DNA from: a virus
Virus record (IMG/VR): IMGVR_UViG_3300042141_000185
Span: 1-25,782 of that record
Reading direction: 5' to 3' (one strand)
Length of the DNA: 25,782 bases
Shown here: in pieces, positions 8,642-25,782 of the stretch
Numbering within the stretch: the first letter of the stretch is position 1
Layout: each line of letters begins with the position of its first letter
The notes under the pieces: generated by a model
Databases searched by the model: none
Seen by the model: the letters and a program-made list of their open reading frames with translations, nothing else
Told to the model about the DNA's origin: nothing
Translations under genes and position numbers: made by a program

Positions 8642-11600
8642 ATGCCAACACTGGACGAATTTGAAAAGCAGTGGCTTGAGCAGAACAAGATCTCGCCCGC
8701 TCCAGTAACGGAGTACACCGAGGAATACACGGTCACGCCGGGCGGATACACGCGCGAAGAGAAAAACCGCCTGCGCGAGCAGCGTGCAGAGGCTCGCAAC
8801 GTTCTTGGATTTCCGTCTGTCGGCCGCGCAATGGAATTGGCCAAAGAGGGGACTATTTCTGGGGCTTCCGGTCTTTCGACATTCCCCCTCACCGTCAATA
8901 CCCTTGCAGCCAAGGGAATGGCCGCTCTGCTGCCAATCGATCCGCTGAAAAAGATGGCGGCATCTGCAGCTTCAGCTGAAGAAGCTGCGCGCGGAGCGCT
9001 TGAGCCTCGCATCAGGGGACTGCTGTCCGGAACGCTTGAGGCAGTGCCAAACCCGATGGTGCCGCGAGAGGGCGAAGTGCTGCCCGAGATGATTCCGCCG
9101 GAAACTCACTACGAAAAGGTCATCTATCGCGCCGGCGAGTTTTTCCCCGAGGCTGTGACCGCCGCCACCGCAACGCGAGCGCTGCTCGGTACTTCAGCAC
9201 CCGGAGTCCTCGGCGCTGCAGTTGGTGGTCTGCGCGCCATCCCCGGTGCCGCCGGGTCTTCTGCGGGCTTGGGGGCGGTGTCAGTCATTGGCGAGGAGGT
9301 GGGCGGAATCCTTGGCAGGCCTTTTAGCGTGGAAGAGGAGGGCCGAATTTTCGGGCGAATCACTGCCGAAGTTTTGGGCGGCGTTGGGACGCAAGCTGGC
9401 GGGCGTGCGGTGGTCGGGACTGCCGCTGAAGCGGGCCGGAAGATTCTTGCGCCTGTATATCGCAGATCGATCGAAGCGGCGCGGCGCGTGTTCGACCAAC
9501 GCTCTCTCAACGCTCTTGGCCCTGATGCCGTCGCTGGCATGGATCGACTGCAGGACAAGCTCGACCAGTTCTTCGCTACACGCACCGGGCAGCAATTGCG
9601 GCTGGCAATGGAGGGCCGAAAGGCCGCATCCGAGGAGGTCGTGCGCGCTGCCGAGCAGGCGATGGCGGACATGGGCATGCCCCTGACCATCGACCTTGCA
9701 ACCCGCACTGGCGCTGCTGAGATGCAGAATCTCATGAAACAGTTGGAGCGCAAGTCTGAGGCCATGCGGTCACGCAAGGTTCAGCAGGAGAAAGCGTTAG
9801 AGGAGGGCATTGAGCGCTTCAAGAGCCAACTGTTTGCCGGCCAGCGGCAAATGAACCTGCCGTCCCTTGCGGAGGAGACGCTGGCGGGCATCATCCAGCG
9901 GCAAGAGGCGAAGATCGCCTTGTATGAGCAGCGGATGAACGAACTGGCGTCCCAGGTCAGGCGCGAGGGCGCATCGTTTGAGTCAGTCGGACGGCAGGCC
10001 CGTCAGATATTGGCGGATGAGCGCAACGCGACGAAGATCTTGTTCCAGGGCGAATACCAGAGCCTAGACCACCAAGGCAATGCGATCGCCGCGCAACTCC
10101 CAGAGGGCGGGTATCGGCTCGACAACATTCTGGGCTACATCGAGCAGATTCGAACCCAGCAGCCGACCTTGTTCGATCAAGTCCACTCTGCCATCACCCG
10201 GTACGATCGCGCCGGCCAACGACTTGTCATCAAGGAAAATCCTGCGGACGCCTCCGACATCCTGCCGGATACCGGAGATTTCCCGGAACTCATGTCGTCA
10301 GAAGAACTGGCGAACCCATCGCTTGCAAACGCAGATGCGATCGTGAAACGGCAGCGCGACGAGGACGCATACAAGGGGACGCAGGAATACCCCGGCGGTC
10401 AGATCTCCGTCGATGTGTCCAAGTTCCAGCCCGTGTCGTTCGCAACCCTGCGCCACCTTCGACGCGACATCGGCTTTGCGTTGCGCTCTTCGCCTCAGCA
10501 GCTCCGCGGCCCTCTTATGCAGTTGCAGCGTCTCATAGATGCAGAGATTGCCGAGAAAACGCCGGAACTGTTCGACATGTTCCAAGCGCTTCAGCGGTCG
10601 TATGCGACACAGTTCATCGAGCGCTACAAGCGCGGAATCGGCGGCAGGATTCTGTCTGCAGACCGGGAAGGAACCTTCACGACCCTCGACAGTTCTCTGT
10701 TGGACATGCTCTGGAAGGCGGGCGCGGACGGGGCTATTCAGATTAGAGCGCTGGGGCTGGACCGCATGCGCCCCAATCCGCTGCTGACCGTCGCGCTGCG
10801 AAAACTCGCCAAGTCGATCGGCAGCGCAGAGCCATCCGTCGCGGCCAAGAAGTTTGGAATCTTCGTGGAAGACAACCGCGAATTTCTGGAGGCGGCCAAC
10901 CTCACGCCGTACTTCACCGACATGCGGACCAGCATGGAGGCGCTCAACGACTCTCTTCGCATCGCGAAAGAGGAAACGAAAATCGTAGATCGCGAATTGC
11001 TGCGGGAAATAATTGGGGGATTGGAAGTCCCAATCGGAGGGAAGGAAGACCTTGGCGGGAAACTCAGGACGATGGTGGCAAACCGCCGAGATCGCGAAAC
11101 CCTCACGAACATGATGGCATCGCCTGGAATGGAGCCGTTCAGGGATGCGGTGCTGAGAACCATGATGGAGGGAATGGACAGAAGCCAGACCCCATTTGAT
11201 GACATGGTTGCGCTGCAAGATGTTCTTCGCCCCCTGTATGCCACCAAGAGTCCAGAGTCATTCGATAAGACCCTAGCGCTCGCGGCGATCGTGCAGACGA
11301 GGAAAATGACAAGCCCGCAGGCATTTCCGCAAGGGCTTGAGTCAATCGCGTCCCAAGACCCCGTACAGCGCGCTACCGGAACAAGCGCTGTCGCCGTCCT
11401 TGGTCGAGCGCGATCTGTCGTCATGGGGTACATGTCGAAACTCTATGCGGCCTTCGACATCCTTTCTCGCTACGGCATCAAGGTCAGTCGCGAGCGGGCG
11501 GACCAATTGCTGATGGACGCGATGTATGACGAGAACGCCAAAGATGCGCTGCTCAATCTGACATTTGCGCTTGATCGCCCGAACATCGACCTGAGCGGCG

Positions 11601-11722
11601 TCAACCGAGCGGTCGGTCGCTGGAACAGGTATGCCATCGAAAACGGCCTGACCGTCCTGCTGTTCGAGGCCACCGAGCCCGCGCGCACCCCGCCGCCAGA
11701 ACTTCTCCCGTGGGTGGACTGA
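8642..11722 (+). CDS. Large internal virion / ejection-type protein
   Basis: This 1026-residue protein, the largest in the window, starts at ATG 8642, 5 nt after the previous stop. Residues 1-60 are charged. A segment 'YEKVIYRAGEFFPEAVTAA' (about 158-176) leads into a Gly/Ala-rich hydrophobic region (about 180-265), followed by long helical and coiled-coil parts ('MKQLERKSEAMRSRKVQQEK'). The length and location at the end of the virion cluster match the largest core/ejection protein of podoviruses. No lysozyme, transglycosylase or peptidase motif is visible, unlike T7 gp16. The 'YxAGxF' segment before the hydrophobic region recurs in the N-terminus of the methyltransferase fusion at 23955. 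Confidence 0.6.
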   Translation: MPTLDEFEKQWLEQNKISPAPVTEYTEEYTVTPGGYTREEKNRLREQRAEARNVLGFPSVGRAMELAKEGTISGASGLSTFPLTVNTLAAKGMAALLPIDPLKKMAASAASAEEAARGALEPRIRGLLSGTLEAVPNPMVPREGEVLPEMIPPETHYEKVIYRAGEFFPEAVTAATATRALLGTSAPGVLGAAVGGLRAIPGAAGSSAGLGAVSVIGEEVGGILGRPFSVEEEGRIFGRITAEVLGGVGTQAGGRAVVGTAAEAGRKILAPVYRRSIEAARRVFDQRSLNALGPDAVAGMDRLQDKLDQFFATRTGQQLRLAMEGRKAASEEVVRAAEQAMADMGMPLTIDLATRTGAAEMQNLMKQLERKSEAMRSRKVQQEKALEEGIERFKSQLFAGQRQMNLPSLAEETLAGIIQRQEAKIALYEQRMNELASQVRREGASFESVGRQARQILADERNATKILFQGEYQSLDHQGNAIAAQLPEGGYRLDNILGYIEQIRTQQPTLFDQVHSAITRYDRAGQRLVIKENPADASDILPDTGDFPELMSSEELANPSLANADAIVKRQRDEDAYKGTQEYPGGQISVDVSKFQPVSFATLRHLRRDIGFALRSSPQQLRGPLMQLQRLIDAEIAEKTPELFDMFQALQRSYATQFIERYKRGIGGRILSADREGTFTTLDSSLLDMLWKAGADGAIQIRALGLDRMRPNPLLTVALRKLAKSIGSAEPSVAAKKFGIFVEDNREFLEAANLTPYFTDMRTSMEALNDSLRIAKEETKIVDRELLREIIGGLEVPIGGKEDLGGKLRTMVANRRDRETLTNMMASPGMEPFRDAVLRTMMEGMDRSQTPFDDMVALQDVLRPLYATKSPESFDKTLALAAIVQTRKMTSPQAFPQGLESIASQDPVQRATGTSAVAVLGRARSVVMGYMSKLYAAFDILSRYGIKVSRERADQLLMDAMYDENAKDALLNLTFALDRPNIDLSGVNRAVGRWNRYAIENGLTVLLFEATEPARTPPPELLPWVD

Positions 11723-16956: not shown

Positions 16957-17323
16957 CCCCCGCATGGTGGCGCTGGTGAAGGGCGACGAGCCTCTCCAGC
17001 GCTTCCTGCGCGAGCTTGTAGAGCATTTCGGCCCGGTCGACGTATCATGGGTCGATGGGCCGGTATGGGAACTTTCGACGGGAGATGACGCGGAAGCTGG
17101 GCGGCACGGCATCCAGCCATACCCTCGCGCCCGCAAAGCCCTCGAAGGCCATCCGACCGTCCCCGCCACTCGAACACGAAATCCAGAAGGCGTTCGTCGC
17201 GATGGTGAACATGCTCCCAGACCCGGCAGTCAGGGTCGCCTTTGCGATCCCGAACGCCGCCAAGCGGTCGTACCGGGTGATCGCGATGCTCAAGGCGGAG
17301 GGTTTCCGGGCGGGGATGCCTGA
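16877..17323 (+). CDS. Overlapping reading frame between loader-like and VRR-NUC genes
   Basis: ATG 16877 opens a 148-residue frame in +2 that overlaps the end of the loader-like gene and the start of the nuclease. Its first 65 residues look coding: strongly G/C third bases and a helical sequence 'EAAARKTYETFRDDPRMVAL', then 'EPLQRFLRELVEHFGPVDVS'. After about 17090 it turns Arg/Pro-rich and the nuclease frame takes over. An alternative start is ATG 16964, 8 nt after the upstream stop. It may be a true overlapping gene, or part of the loader protein reached by a +1 shift near 16870. I cannot decide between these. Confidence 0.4.
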   Translation: MPNPAVRLPPSEAEAAARKTYETFRDDPRMVALVKGDEPLQRFLRELVEHFGPVDVSWVDGPVWELSTGDDAEAGRHGIQPYPRARKALEGHPTVPATRTRNPEGVRRDGEHAPRPGSQGRLCDPERRQAVVPGDRDAQGGGFPGGDA

Positions 17324-17561
17324 CTGGTGCCTGCCCGTGCCGCGGGGACAGTACTGCGCCCTCTGGATCGAGTTCAAAAGGCCTGGTGAAAAGGCACGCC
17401 CCGAGCAGGCCGCAATGCACGAACTGCTCAGGGCGGAAGGGGCGTCAGTGCAGATCCACACCGACGCCCACGAGGCACTGCAGGCGGTAAGAGACTACCT
17501 GTCTCTCGGTCGTCAGTATAGCGGCCTGTCGGAGGTCAGCCCGCAGTCCTCGCAGCGGTAG
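17055..17561 (+). CDS. VRR-NUC domain nuclease
   Basis: The frame runs from ATG 17055 (168 residues), with ATG 17085 as an alternative start; neither has a well-spaced ribosome site. The core from about residue 38 matches the VRR-NUC fold, a PD-(D/E)XK-type nuclease related to Holliday-junction resolvases: 'PPLEHEIQKAFVAMVN', 'FAIPNAAKRSYRV' (usually IPNGG), 'GFRAGMPDWCLPVPRGQYCA' with Asp90, 'LWIEFKRPGEKARPEQ' with Glu106-x-Lys108 and Gln118, and 'GASVQI...EAL'. Stand-alone phage versions probably process branched DNA in replication or packaging. The gene's 3' end overlaps the convergent gene at 17513 by 49 nt. The catalytic set is complete. Confidence 0.8.
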   Translation: MGRYGNFRREMTRKLGGTASSHTLAPAKPSKAIRPSPPLEHEIQKAFVAMVNMLPDPAVRVAFAIPNAAKRSYRVIAMLKAEGFRAGMPDWCLPVPRGQYCALWIEFKRPGEKARPEQAAMHELLRAEGASVQIHTDAHEALQAVRDYLSLGRQYSGLSEVSPQSSQR

Positions 17562-23391: not shown

Positions 23392-23535
23392 AGCGATTCC
23401 TTTGTGGTCAGGTAGTACGGAGAGGTTCTTGAGAGTCTGGATGAGGTGTGCCCACGGGCGAGTATCGGCTTGATGGTGTTCTGGGGGTGTTGGGCTATGC
23501 TATTGGCGGCGCATGGGGCGCTTGGGAGAGCAGGA

Positions 23536-23781
23536 ATGGCGAAGATGGGCATGGGTAAGGGGGCGAGGGGTGGTGGTGTGCAGGGGTCGCAGAGGATGCC
23601 GAGCGTGGCGGCTGGTGTGCGTGCTGGTATGGGGGCTGGTGTGGGTGCCAAGGTGAAGGCGAAGGCGCCGCAGGCGATGCCTGGGGTGACGAGTCCGGCG
23701 TACAACAAGGGGCTGGGGCGGATGGCGAAGGCTGGGAAGCTGGGTGCGGCGATGGGCGTCAAGAAGCCGAAGGGGATGTGA
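23536..23781 (+). CDS. Small basic Gly/Lys/Met-rich protein
   Basis: I choose ATG 23536, 6 nt after GGAGAGCAGG, giving 81 residues; the in-frame ATG 23446 has no ribosome site. The protein is almost entirely Ala, Gly, Lys, Met, Val and Pro (MAKMGMGKGARGGGVQGSQR, 'KVKAKAPQAMPGVTSPAYNK', ending 'GVKKPKGM'), with no acidic residues visible. It is likely disordered. Its position at the start of the virion module, with more basic small proteins next to it, suggests a DNA-contacting virion or assembly factor. The function is unknown. Confidence 0.6.
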   Translation: MAKMGMGKGARGGGVQGSQRMPSVAAGVRAGMGAGVGAKVKAKAPQAMPGVTSPAYNKGLGRMAKAGKLGAAMGVKKPKGM

Positions 23782-23782
23782 G

Positions 23783-23953
23783 ATGGCGAAGGCTGGTCTG
23801 TACGCGAACATACACGCCAAGCGTGCGCGGATAGCGGAGGGGAGTGGGGAGCGGATGCGGAAGGTGGGGGCGAAGGGTGCGCCGCGGGACGAGGATTTTC
23901 GCGAGTCTGCGAAGACGGCCAAGCGGCCCGTGAAGCGTAGCAGGCGGGGGTAG
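23783..23953 (+). CDS. Small basic conserved phage protein ('GLYANIHAKRARI' family)
   Basis: ATG 23783 starts one nt after the previous stop; the in-frame start at 23744 overlaps that gene. The 56-residue protein matches a pattern common near packaging and portal genes in podoviruses and marine phages: 'GLYANIHAKRARIAEGSGER', then 'MRKVGAKGAPRDEDFRESAK' and 'TAKRPVKRSRRG'. It is highly basic. I recall the family as uncharacterised. Its presence supports placing this region at the head of a virion module. Confidence 0.7.
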   Translation: MAKAGLYANIHAKRARIAEGSGERMRKVGAKGAPRDEDFRESAKTAKRPVKRSRRG

Positions 23954-23954
23954 G

Positions 23955-25295
23955 GTGGATCGCCAGTTCTACGAAGACCTGAAGCGCAATGCCGCAGCTG
24001 CTGCCAGAGGCGCGCAGCAGGGCTTGACCACGGACACGCTGGGCGCACCGGTGGACTTGGTCAATATGGCCTTGGGTGCCCTAGGGGTGAACATTCCGGC
24101 CCCTGTCGGCGGGTCCGAGTGGTTTCAGCGGCAGGCGGAGGAGCGCGGGCTGCTGCCGCCGGCCGAGGACAACCTGCAGTATCAGGCTGGCAGGTTTCTG
24201 GGGCCGATGGCGGCGGCTGGTGTGCCGCGGGCCTTGGAGGCTGCCAAGAACCTGGGGGTCAATGCCGTGCAGGATTACATGAAATCCGCTATTGGCAGCA
24301 ATCCATATCGCGGGCAGATGGGAGCGGTGGGCAGCATAGAAGAGAAGCCGCGCGTCCTGACCCTGTTTTCCGGCGGCGGCAGTTATGAGCAGGCCTTGAA
24401 GGGCAAGGTGCGCCCCGTGGGGGCGGTGGAGTTCGACCCTGCGATCGGAGGACACTACCGCAACGTCCACGGCGAACACGTACAGGTCAAGGATGTCCGC
24501 GAGGTGGACTTCACCCCATTCCGCGGCCAGGTGGACATCATGCACGCCTCGCCTGTCTGCAAGCGGGCATCCGCCGCCAAATGCGCTGCCGGCGAGCAGG
24601 AACTGGACATGGACACGGCACAGGCCACTGCCCGCGCCCTGGGCGAGGTGGAACCTGCCGTATTCACGCTGGAGAACGTGCCCCAGTACCAGAAATTCGG
24701 CGCGTTCAAGGTCATCACCGACAAACTGGACGAACTGGGCTACAACTGGGATGTGGTCAGGTATGACGCCGCCCGGCTTGGGGCACCCTCTCGGCGCGAC
24801 CGCATCATGCTCAGGGCCAGCAAGGGCCAGTTGCCGCCCGCGCCGGGGGCTGCTGCGCCTGCTGCCCAGGCGGACTGGTTCTCGGCTGTTGAAGACCTCC
24901 TGCCGACGATGCCGCGGTCCAACCTTGCCAACTGGCAGCGGCAGCGGCTGATGGCGCAGGGCATCAATCCTGACGCCTTGGAGAGGCCGTTACTGGTCGG
25001 TGGTGGCAGCGGGATGAAGGGGACCATCCCTGCGGCCCAGCAGGGCGGTCCTGCGTGGACGATCAAGGCCACCGCAAAGGAACTTGGCGGCGACCGCATC
25101 GTGATGCCGGGGGGAGAGACTTACACGCTGACCCCGCGGGCCTATGCGCGCCTGCTGGGGCTTCCTGACGAGTACCCGCTGCCTGACGACGCGCGTTTGG
25201 CGAAGACGATCGTAGGCAATGCGATGGCGCCCGCCATGACTCGCGAGGTGATGGAGCCATTTCTGAAGATGCTTGCAGGAAAGGGGGTGCAGTGA
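23955..25295 (+). CDS. C5-cytosine DNA methyltransferase fused to a virion-type N-terminal segment
   Basis: GTG 23955 starts one nt after the previous stop, giving 446 residues. Residues 132-440 are a cytosine-5 methyltransferase: motif I 'VLTLFSGGGS' (134-143), motif IV 'ASPVCKRAS' with catalytic Cys202, motif VI 'LENVPQY' (239-245), motif VIII 'LGAPSRRDRIML' (275-286), and motifs IX-X 'RLLGLPDEYPLP' and 'IVGNAMAP' (399-426). Motif IV reads SPVC rather than PPCQ, as I recall from other phage enzymes. Residues 1-130 are not methyltransferase: 'TLGAPVDLVNMALGALGVNI', 'PVGGSEWFQRQ', 'QYQAGRFLGPMAAAGV'. This resembles injected or polyvalent phage proteins. No cognate restriction enzyme is present. 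Confidence 0.8.
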   Translation: MDRQFYEDLKRNAAAAARGAQQGLTTDTLGAPVDLVNMALGALGVNIPAPVGGSEWFQRQAEERGLLPPAEDNLQYQAGRFLGPMAAAGVPRALEAAKNLGVNAVQDYMKSAIGSNPYRGQMGAVGSIEEKPRVLTLFSGGGSYEQALKGKVRPVGAVEFDPAIGGHYRNVHGEHVQVKDVREVDFTPFRGQVDIMHASPVCKRASAAKCAAGEQELDMDTAQATARALGEVEPAVFTLENVPQYQKFGAFKVITDKLDELGYNWDVVRYDAARLGAPSRRDRIMLRASKGQLPPAPGAAAPAAQADWFSAVEDLLPTMPRSNLANWQRQRLMAQGINPDALERPLLVGGGSGMKGTIPAAQQGGPAWTIKATAKELGGDRIVMPGGETYTLTPRAYARLLGLPDEYPLPDDARLAKTIVGNAMAPAMTREVMEPFLKMLAGKGVQ

Positions 25296-25570
25296 TGCCC
25301 AAGAAGCAGGGGCCGAACCTGTCCGTCTCCAAGGGCGAGAAGCTTCCGGTGTCGAAAGGTGCTGGACTCACGGCCAAGGGGCGGGAGAAGTACAATCGCG
25401 CGACCGGGAGCAACCTGAAGGCTCCTGCGCCGAACCCGAAGACGGCGGCTGACGCCGGTCGGAAGGCCAGTTTCTGCGCCCGGATGTCTGGCATGCCGGG
25501 TCCGATGAAGGATGAGAAGGGTCGCCCGACCCGCAAGGCCGCGAGTCTGCGGCGATGGAATTGCCCGTAG
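25295..25570 (+). CDS. Small basic phage protein with CARMSGM/RRWNC end
   Basis: ATG 25295 shares its A with the methyltransferase TGA and follows AAGGGGG, giving 91 residues. The sequence is highly basic with two near-repeats at the start ('NLSVSKGEKLPVSKGAGLTA'), then 'KGREKYNRATGSNLKAPAPN', 'ASFCARMSGMPGPMKDEKGR' and 'AASLRRWNCP'. The block 'GLTAKGR.KYNRATGSNLK.P.P', with a closing 'SFCAR..G' and 'RRW.C', is shared with many phage proteins from structural modules. The function is unknown; contact with packaged DNA is plausible. Confidence 0.7.
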   Translation: MPKKQGPNLSVSKGEKLPVSKGAGLTAKGREKYNRATGSNLKAPAPNPKTAADAGRKASFCARMSGMPGPMKDEKGRPTRKAASLRRWNCP

Positions 25571-25587: not shown

Positions 25588-25782
25588 ATGACGACGTGGA
25601 TTGGCGGTTACGACCGAACTGACGACAGCAATGCCATCAAGCCGGTGGCGGAGTACCAGGATCCGGTCAACAAGATGCGGGTGTCGCAGCCCCAGTCTTT
25701 GATCGACACCGACTTCGAGTACGGCCTGCAGCCCACCAAGTGGGATGCGGTGACCCTGTCGAACAACAGGCCCACCCTATTC
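25588..25782 (+). CDS. N-terminus of large virion structural protein (partial)
   Basis: ATG 25588 follows AAGGAGAGCG and the frame is open to the window edge, showing 65 residues. It starts MTTWIGGYDRTDDSNAIKPV and contains 'VNKMRVSQPQSLIDTDFEYG' followed by 'LQPTKWDAVTLSNNRPTLF'. The block 'RVS.PQsLIDTDFEYGlQptKWe.l...NN.P..f' is a recognisable N-terminal motif of large virion proteins in podoviruses and cyanophage-like or marine myoviruses. The full size and role cannot be seen. Confidence 0.6.
   Translation, partial: MTTWIGGYDRTDDSNAIKPVAEYQDPVNKMRVSQPQSLIDTDFEYGLQPTKWDAVTLSNNRPTLF

Follow-up and report, generated by a model that had tools for sequence, protein, structure and literature searches.

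The stretch of DNA analysed here, called the window in the following, is the entire IMG/VR record IMGVR_UViG_3300042141_000185, a 25,782-base fragment from an uncultured tailed phage. Close to the start of a rightward operon of virion genes, it carries a gene for a C5-cytosine DNA methyltransferase, the start of which is tightly coupled to the small gene upstream, and directly 3' of which lie the genes for a DUF6321 protein and a phrog_5838 structural protein. The features of this region are:

23446..23781, plus strand: basic ORF of 111 residues at the head of the rightward operon, with no function assigned from the ORF list and profile searches
23783..23953, plus strand: small basic protein of 56 residues (phrog_16028), encoded just 3' of the terminase large subunit gene in related phages
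23955..25295, plus strand: C5-cytosine DNA methyltransferase gene, 446 residues, with a GTG start at 23955 and a stop codon ending at 25295
23973..24227, plus strand: N-terminal module, residues ~7-91, recognised by a module HMM match (GAPVD at 24042-24056, PVGGSEW at 24102-24122)
24228..24344, plus strand: linker, residues ~92-130, helical to disordered with low confidence in the AlphaFold model
24345..25292, plus strand: catalytic domain, residues 131-446 (Cys202 at 24558-24560, ENV at 24672-24680, GNAMAP near the C-terminus)
25292..25570, plus strand: DUF6321 protein (PF19846), the gene for which begins 9-480 nt past the terminase large subunit gene in related phages
25588..25782, plus strand: start of a virion structural protein (phrog_5838), truncated by the contig end

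A first-pass annotation, made from the sequence alone, had placed the methyltransferase among virion genes and noted the absence of a restriction partner. Both observations hold: the gene belongs to the rightward operon, with the DUF6321 and virion-structural genes 3' of it, and no restriction gene was recognised adjoining it. In a clade of related phages, DUF6321 and phrog_16028 genes come after terminase in 40 and 48 loci, respectively. As its neighbours are post-terminase genes there, the window methyltransferase sits in the packaging region, though not necessarily within the slot between the genes for the small and large terminase subunits (TerS and TerL), which is described below. DUF6321 itself stands alone after terminase in many related phages, whereas several PHROGs have it as the C-terminal portion of larger proteins; we found no paper on it among the open-access ones searched. 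Elsewhere in the window, positions 17055-17561, apart from the methyltransferase gene, encode a VRR-NUC nuclease-like protein (PF08774, phrog_824), and a minus-strand ORF at 20996-22075 matches phrog_2554 (E 1e-55, function unassigned) and has a similar-looking counterpart in locus L007 (961-1794, minus strand; L numbers denote the loci of this analysis).

The ORF encodes a complete C5-cytosine methyltransferase of the M.HhaI fold, together with an extra N-terminus of about 130 residues. PF00145 matches residues 134-434 (E 1.3e-25, 91 bits against a Pfam cut-off of 22), and in a nine-row alignment of the window enzyme and its relatives, Cys202 (motif IV), E240-N241-V242 (motif VI), R281/R283 (the RxR of motif VIII) and G421-N422 (the GN of motif X) are invariant, which substantiates the full motif set read earlier from the sequence. 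Motif IV has the form P-V-C instead of the usual P-C, a variant that the relatives have as well. In the AlphaFold model, residues 131-446 are predicted with confidence, with M.HhaI and M.HaeIII as the best Foldseek matches (E 6e-16 to 8e-15), and residues 1-130 are helical with low confidence. That these N-terminal residues lie outside any methyltransferase domain, as had been proposed, was likewise supported: no Pfam family covers residues 1-130, PHROG DNA-methyltransferase matches start at about residue 128, and the related solo phage methyltransferases begin right at the catalytic domain. Across the whole protein, PF00145 was the only Pfam match, and the N6-adenine methyltransferase, SF2 helicase and LPD36 domains of the phage P1 protein DarB are absent. 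Searches of PHROGs with residues 1-130 gave weak matches, none of them significant. The GC content by codon position is alike in the N-terminal and enzyme parts of the ORF.

To find relatives of the N-terminus, we searched 2.9 million contigs of viral origin for coding sequence matching PVGG(S/T)EW plus one hydrophobic residue. Of the 59 stretches obtained, about 40 encode proteins with the same layout: they open with what looks like a helix and continue with G(A)PVD, at least 15 further residues and PVGGSEW, after which come a segment that resembles RRPxxE or contains GE and, finally, small hydrophobics. The window protein matches an HMM of this module, built without the window sequence, with 70 bits (E 2e-20). 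Because the collection was seeded by PVGGSEW and is biased toward this motif, we also masked the motif in the window protein, which then scored 30.7 bits, compared with 13.8 bits for the best of 20,000 shuffles. Judged by these sequence comparisons, residues ~7-91 constitute an uncatalogued module. The first-pass annotation had additionally seen a likeness between the N-terminus and the segment IYRAGEFFPEAV of a 1026-residue protein encoded in the window (8642-11722). This likeness was not borne out, with BLASTP E-values of at least 1.2 and a module HMM score of 3.3 bits.

All relatives in this analysis come from metagenomic or uncultured-virus records or from bacterial genome contigs, many of them short; Variovorax (L067, L073) and Diaphorobacter (L063) are among the bacteria with putative prophages that bear the module. 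When residues 1-130 and module sequences were compared by tblastn with 50,697 phages and 72,556 plasmids, nothing significant was found, and these collections revealed no cultured module-bearing phage; matches to Motura, SNUABM and zth2-2 (the last with E 0.02) were judged to be due to chance. Among 85k prokaryote genomes, a module pattern with fixed spacing gave 0 matches and a looser one 13, of which four are real. Several homologous modules, though not the window's own copy, match phrog_21712. In one alignment (A2), these are four of 15 copies, with a best E-value of 4e-6; PHROGs labels this family 'major head protein', a label to which we give no weight. In the open-access papers searched, we found no description of the module, nor of the NxLAP tag or the TerS-TerL slot introduced below, although such descriptions may exist elsewhere.

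Overall, the module is common to about 40 phage proteins with differing cargos, several of whose assignments fall below Pfam curated thresholds. In proteins of 280-450 residues it stands at the N-terminus, and the rest of these proteins is unrelated, being ART-like (in L006 with PF18760 at E 7e-5, below the cut-off, and more weakly in L052), GNAT-like (in L007 at E 0.0016, also below the cut-off) or, in several cases, without any match. It is also found internally in proteins of 585-1,270 residues, some of which have SLT lysozyme domains (L043, E 4e-13; L021, E 5e-9); DUF7178 (L030) and PcfJ (L032) are further domains carried by large module proteins. One locus (L205:11356-14387) has two tandem module genes, encoding a short ART-like protein and a 633-residue protein with a degenerate PGGSEW module. 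In 16 of the 17 records in which both were found, the module gene and terminase lie on the same strand. The kinship of the N-terminus to ejection or polyvalent-type proteins, as first suggested, is thus supported by the occurrence of the module on phage proteins that are unrelated to one another, among them large ones with lysozyme domains or of the polyvalent type. Conversely, had homologues of residues 1-130 turned up only in solitary methyltransferases, this would have spoken against a virion role; instead, no other methyltransferase in the module-bearing records has the module, and the close relatives of the enzyme reside in the TerS-TerL slot or in a giant polyvalent protein.

These relatives of the enzyme were found by a profile search of viral contigs; a direct search with the whole window protein gave no match, because its search patterns were unique to that protein. 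The relatives comprise the methyltransferases of L081 and L082 (64% identical over the catalytic domain), the solo enzyme of L083 (41%) and that of L105 (37%). In L081 and L082, the enzymes have a leader that differs from the window module, and their genes lie between TerS and TerL. The L082 locus, which encodes a portal of the P22 type (E 2e-174), and the L105 protein, a polyvalent one of about 3,480 residues that has the methyltransferase as its C-terminal domain besides phosphoribosyltransferase (PRTase), ART-PolyVal and GNAT domains, are organised as follows:

L082, gene order: TerS-like, methyltransferase, 73 aa, terminase large subunit (phrog_2), 137 aa, DUF6321, 88 aa, P22-type portal, 120 aa, 88 aa, scaffold-like
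L105:1-6921 / L202:10361-20000: giant polyvalent protein with a C-terminal C5 methyltransferase

In a tree, the window enzyme groups with those of L081, L082 and L105 in a single clade with a support of 99/98, in which the L105 branch is long and, given that the tree tool warns on long branches, less surely placed than its architecture is determined. From this clade, we conclude that a single enzyme lineage occurs with three N-terminal arrangements: fused to the module, fused to a different leader, or as part of a giant polyvalent protein.

We surveyed the slot between the terminase genes in 72 phages in which both genes are visible and TerL is at least 76% identical (76-88%). In 41 of them it is empty; in the other 31 it is filled, by well over ten unrelated families, and Pfam and PHROGs offered no function for most of these cargos. 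This hypervariable slot belongs to a freshwater podovirus clade (L220-L298). Many of its occupants begin with a short N-terminal sequence of the form M..NxLAPxxxN, hereafter the NxLAP tag, which is found in 17 of 32 slot ORFs and in 2 of 1586 other ORFs of the same loci, both of the latter also close to terminase genes. Although the count is inflated by kinship, about ten unrelated families still share the tag, and as its Leu, Ala and Pro are encoded by many synonymous codons, it is the peptide and not the DNA that is conserved. Leaders can also be longer: the L081 methyltransferase and the L228 slot protein have a common leader (residues 1-111, 86%) on different cargos, that of L228 being one that we take to be ParB-like from 'SHEGRHRA'. 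The L284 slot protein has an LPD23 polyvalent domain (PF18838, 3e-11), and some slot cargos have neither tag nor module. DUF6973 occurs both in an NxLAP-tagged slot protein (L270:646-1104) and in a module protein of a bacterial MAG (L068:6338-7999).

Tag and module meet in L007, the slot protein of which combines the NxLAP tag, the module and a GNAT-like domain. Its gene lies between a TerS gene (57% identical to that of L082) and a TerL gene (78% identical), so that the slot is the same as in L082 with another payload. L007 is the sole case of a module in the slot, as no further copies were found in the terminase-selected loci or in those fetched by other queries. No window ORF carries the tag. 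Given that the window protein lacks it and that the closest enzymes carry a different leader, module and tag need not share a job.

The fusion of the methyltransferase to a segment found on many unrelated enzymes suggests that it is loaded into the particle and delivered with the viral DNA. Computation establishes the module and its occurrence on unrelated cargos, the location in the packaging region, the polyvalent relative and the intact catalytic motifs, and from here we infer packaging, injection and an anti-restriction role. We lean, if only slightly, towards the view that the window gene encodes a single-enzyme effector, packaged in the virion and injected, for methylating phage DNA upon entry or early in replication, similar to P1 DarB in logic, though not homologous to it. 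In this scenario, the N-terminal segment of about 90 residues would be a portable one that phages of this kind put on particle-destined proteins, and the C-terminal domain a predicted active C5-cytosine DNA methyltransferase. Produced late, along with the packaging and structural genes, the enzyme would be docked by its module in or on the procapsid or portal, be ejected into the next cell with the DNA, and there methylate cytosines of the incoming and first replicated phage DNA, thereby evading restriction. Among the open-access papers searched, we found none on a virion-packaged cytosine methyltransferase.

Counting against injection, late expression would by itself suffice to methylate progeny DNA ahead of packaging. 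The main alternative is accordingly a late solitary methyltransferase that acts in the producing cell only and marks progeny DNA before or during packaging, with the module serving as a tether to the portal, terminase or procapsid. This would agree with the position of the gene near the head of a late operon, with the close relatives directly between the terminase subunit genes, and with solitary methyltransferases being common in phages. Yet the module and the slot also come with ART-like, GNAT-like, LPD23 and ParB-like proteins; no use in packaging is obvious for these, but they fit effectors acting upon entry. In addition, the sister enzyme in L105 is part of a giant polyvalent protein; we therefore judge this alternative unlikely, while giving it real weight. 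Even with methylation before packaging, an injected copy would moreover be of use. As the gene is late, the DNA from the initial rounds of replication would otherwise be under-methylated, and an injected enzyme would cover the gap before the phage's own late gene is expressed, when replication dilutes the earlier methylation and exposes restriction sites.

An injected enzyme might also be directed at the host, where early DNA methylation could alter transcription or block nucleases. ART-like and GNAT-like companion cargos, which are expected to modify host proteins, would be in keeping with this, but nothing points specifically to host targets, and the function best documented for phage methyltransferases, and for the injected DarB system of P1, is to protect DNA (PMC9024508, PMC5512222), so that we regard a host-directed role as improbable. 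Finally, the module may have nothing to do with packaging and may instead be, say, a fold of general use or a domain that interacts with membranes or a DNA conduit, and the gene an accessory cargo hitch-hiking in variable sites of the late operon. The module has no known biochemical function, its region is modelled with low confidence, and other slot cargos manage without tag or module; its repeated, conserved N-terminal fusion to unrelated cargos, and its presence in large lysozyme-domain proteins of the ejection-protein type, nevertheless make this account hardly likely.

Beyond the window, we consider it possible, and advance only tentatively, that in environmental P22-like podoviruses the module and the NxLAP tag are packaging or ejection signals for injected effectors that rotate through variable sites among the packaging genes. 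The C5 methyltransferase would be one such payload, a stand-alone anti-restriction enzyme of a kind outside the polyvalent protein survey. Injected phage effectors are hard to spot, because they have little sequence in common. If this proposal is true, module, tag and TerS-TerL slot offer a way to find such effectors in uncultured phages as well as new candidate signals for loading proteins into virions, and cytosine methylation joins what a phage particle may carry into the cell.

Among known systems, the internal proteins of phage T4, such as IPIII and Alt, resemble the proposed arrangement in that a short N-terminal sequence is placed on unrelated small cargos that are delivered with the DNA, although no sequence relation to the window module or the tag is evident. 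The T4 capsid targeting sequence is cleaved off by the prohead protease. Solitary phage C5 methyltransferases, such as that of Planktothrix phage PaV-LD and those of phrog_116/363, have a homologous catalytic domain, but begin directly with it and do not possess the N-terminal module; in PaV-LD, the gene also lies near a replicative helicase gene, unlike that in the window.

Another comparison is with polyvalent proteins. Relatives that share the module or the slot draw on the effector repertoire of such proteins (PMC5512222), with ART-PolyVal, GNAT, LPD23, PcfJ and PRTase domains; the window gene is located among virion genes, and the sister enzyme in L105 forms a domain of a true giant polyvalent protein. 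While such proteins are defined by at least two effector domains, as found in L105, the window protein has a single catalytic domain and an unassigned module. Furthermore, the methyltransferases in the polyvalent survey are mostly EcoKI/TaqI-like adenine enzymes, and the word 'cytosine' appears in its reference list only (Iyer et al. 2017, PMC5512222). The precedent in function is DarB of phage P1, an antirestriction protein that is believed to be injected and whose N-terminal 30 residues suffice for capsid targeting (PMC9024508). DarB is a 250 kDa protein with an N6-adenine methyltransferase, a SWI2/SNF2 helicase and an LPD36 N-terminus, whereas the window protein is a C5-cytosine enzyme of 446 residues with an unrelated N-terminus and no helicase. 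By extension from P1 to the window protein, the two would have three things in common: the presumed entry of a DNA methyltransferase into the cell along with the DNA, a packaging signal at the N-terminus, and a virion-linked gene (PMC9024508, PMC5512222).
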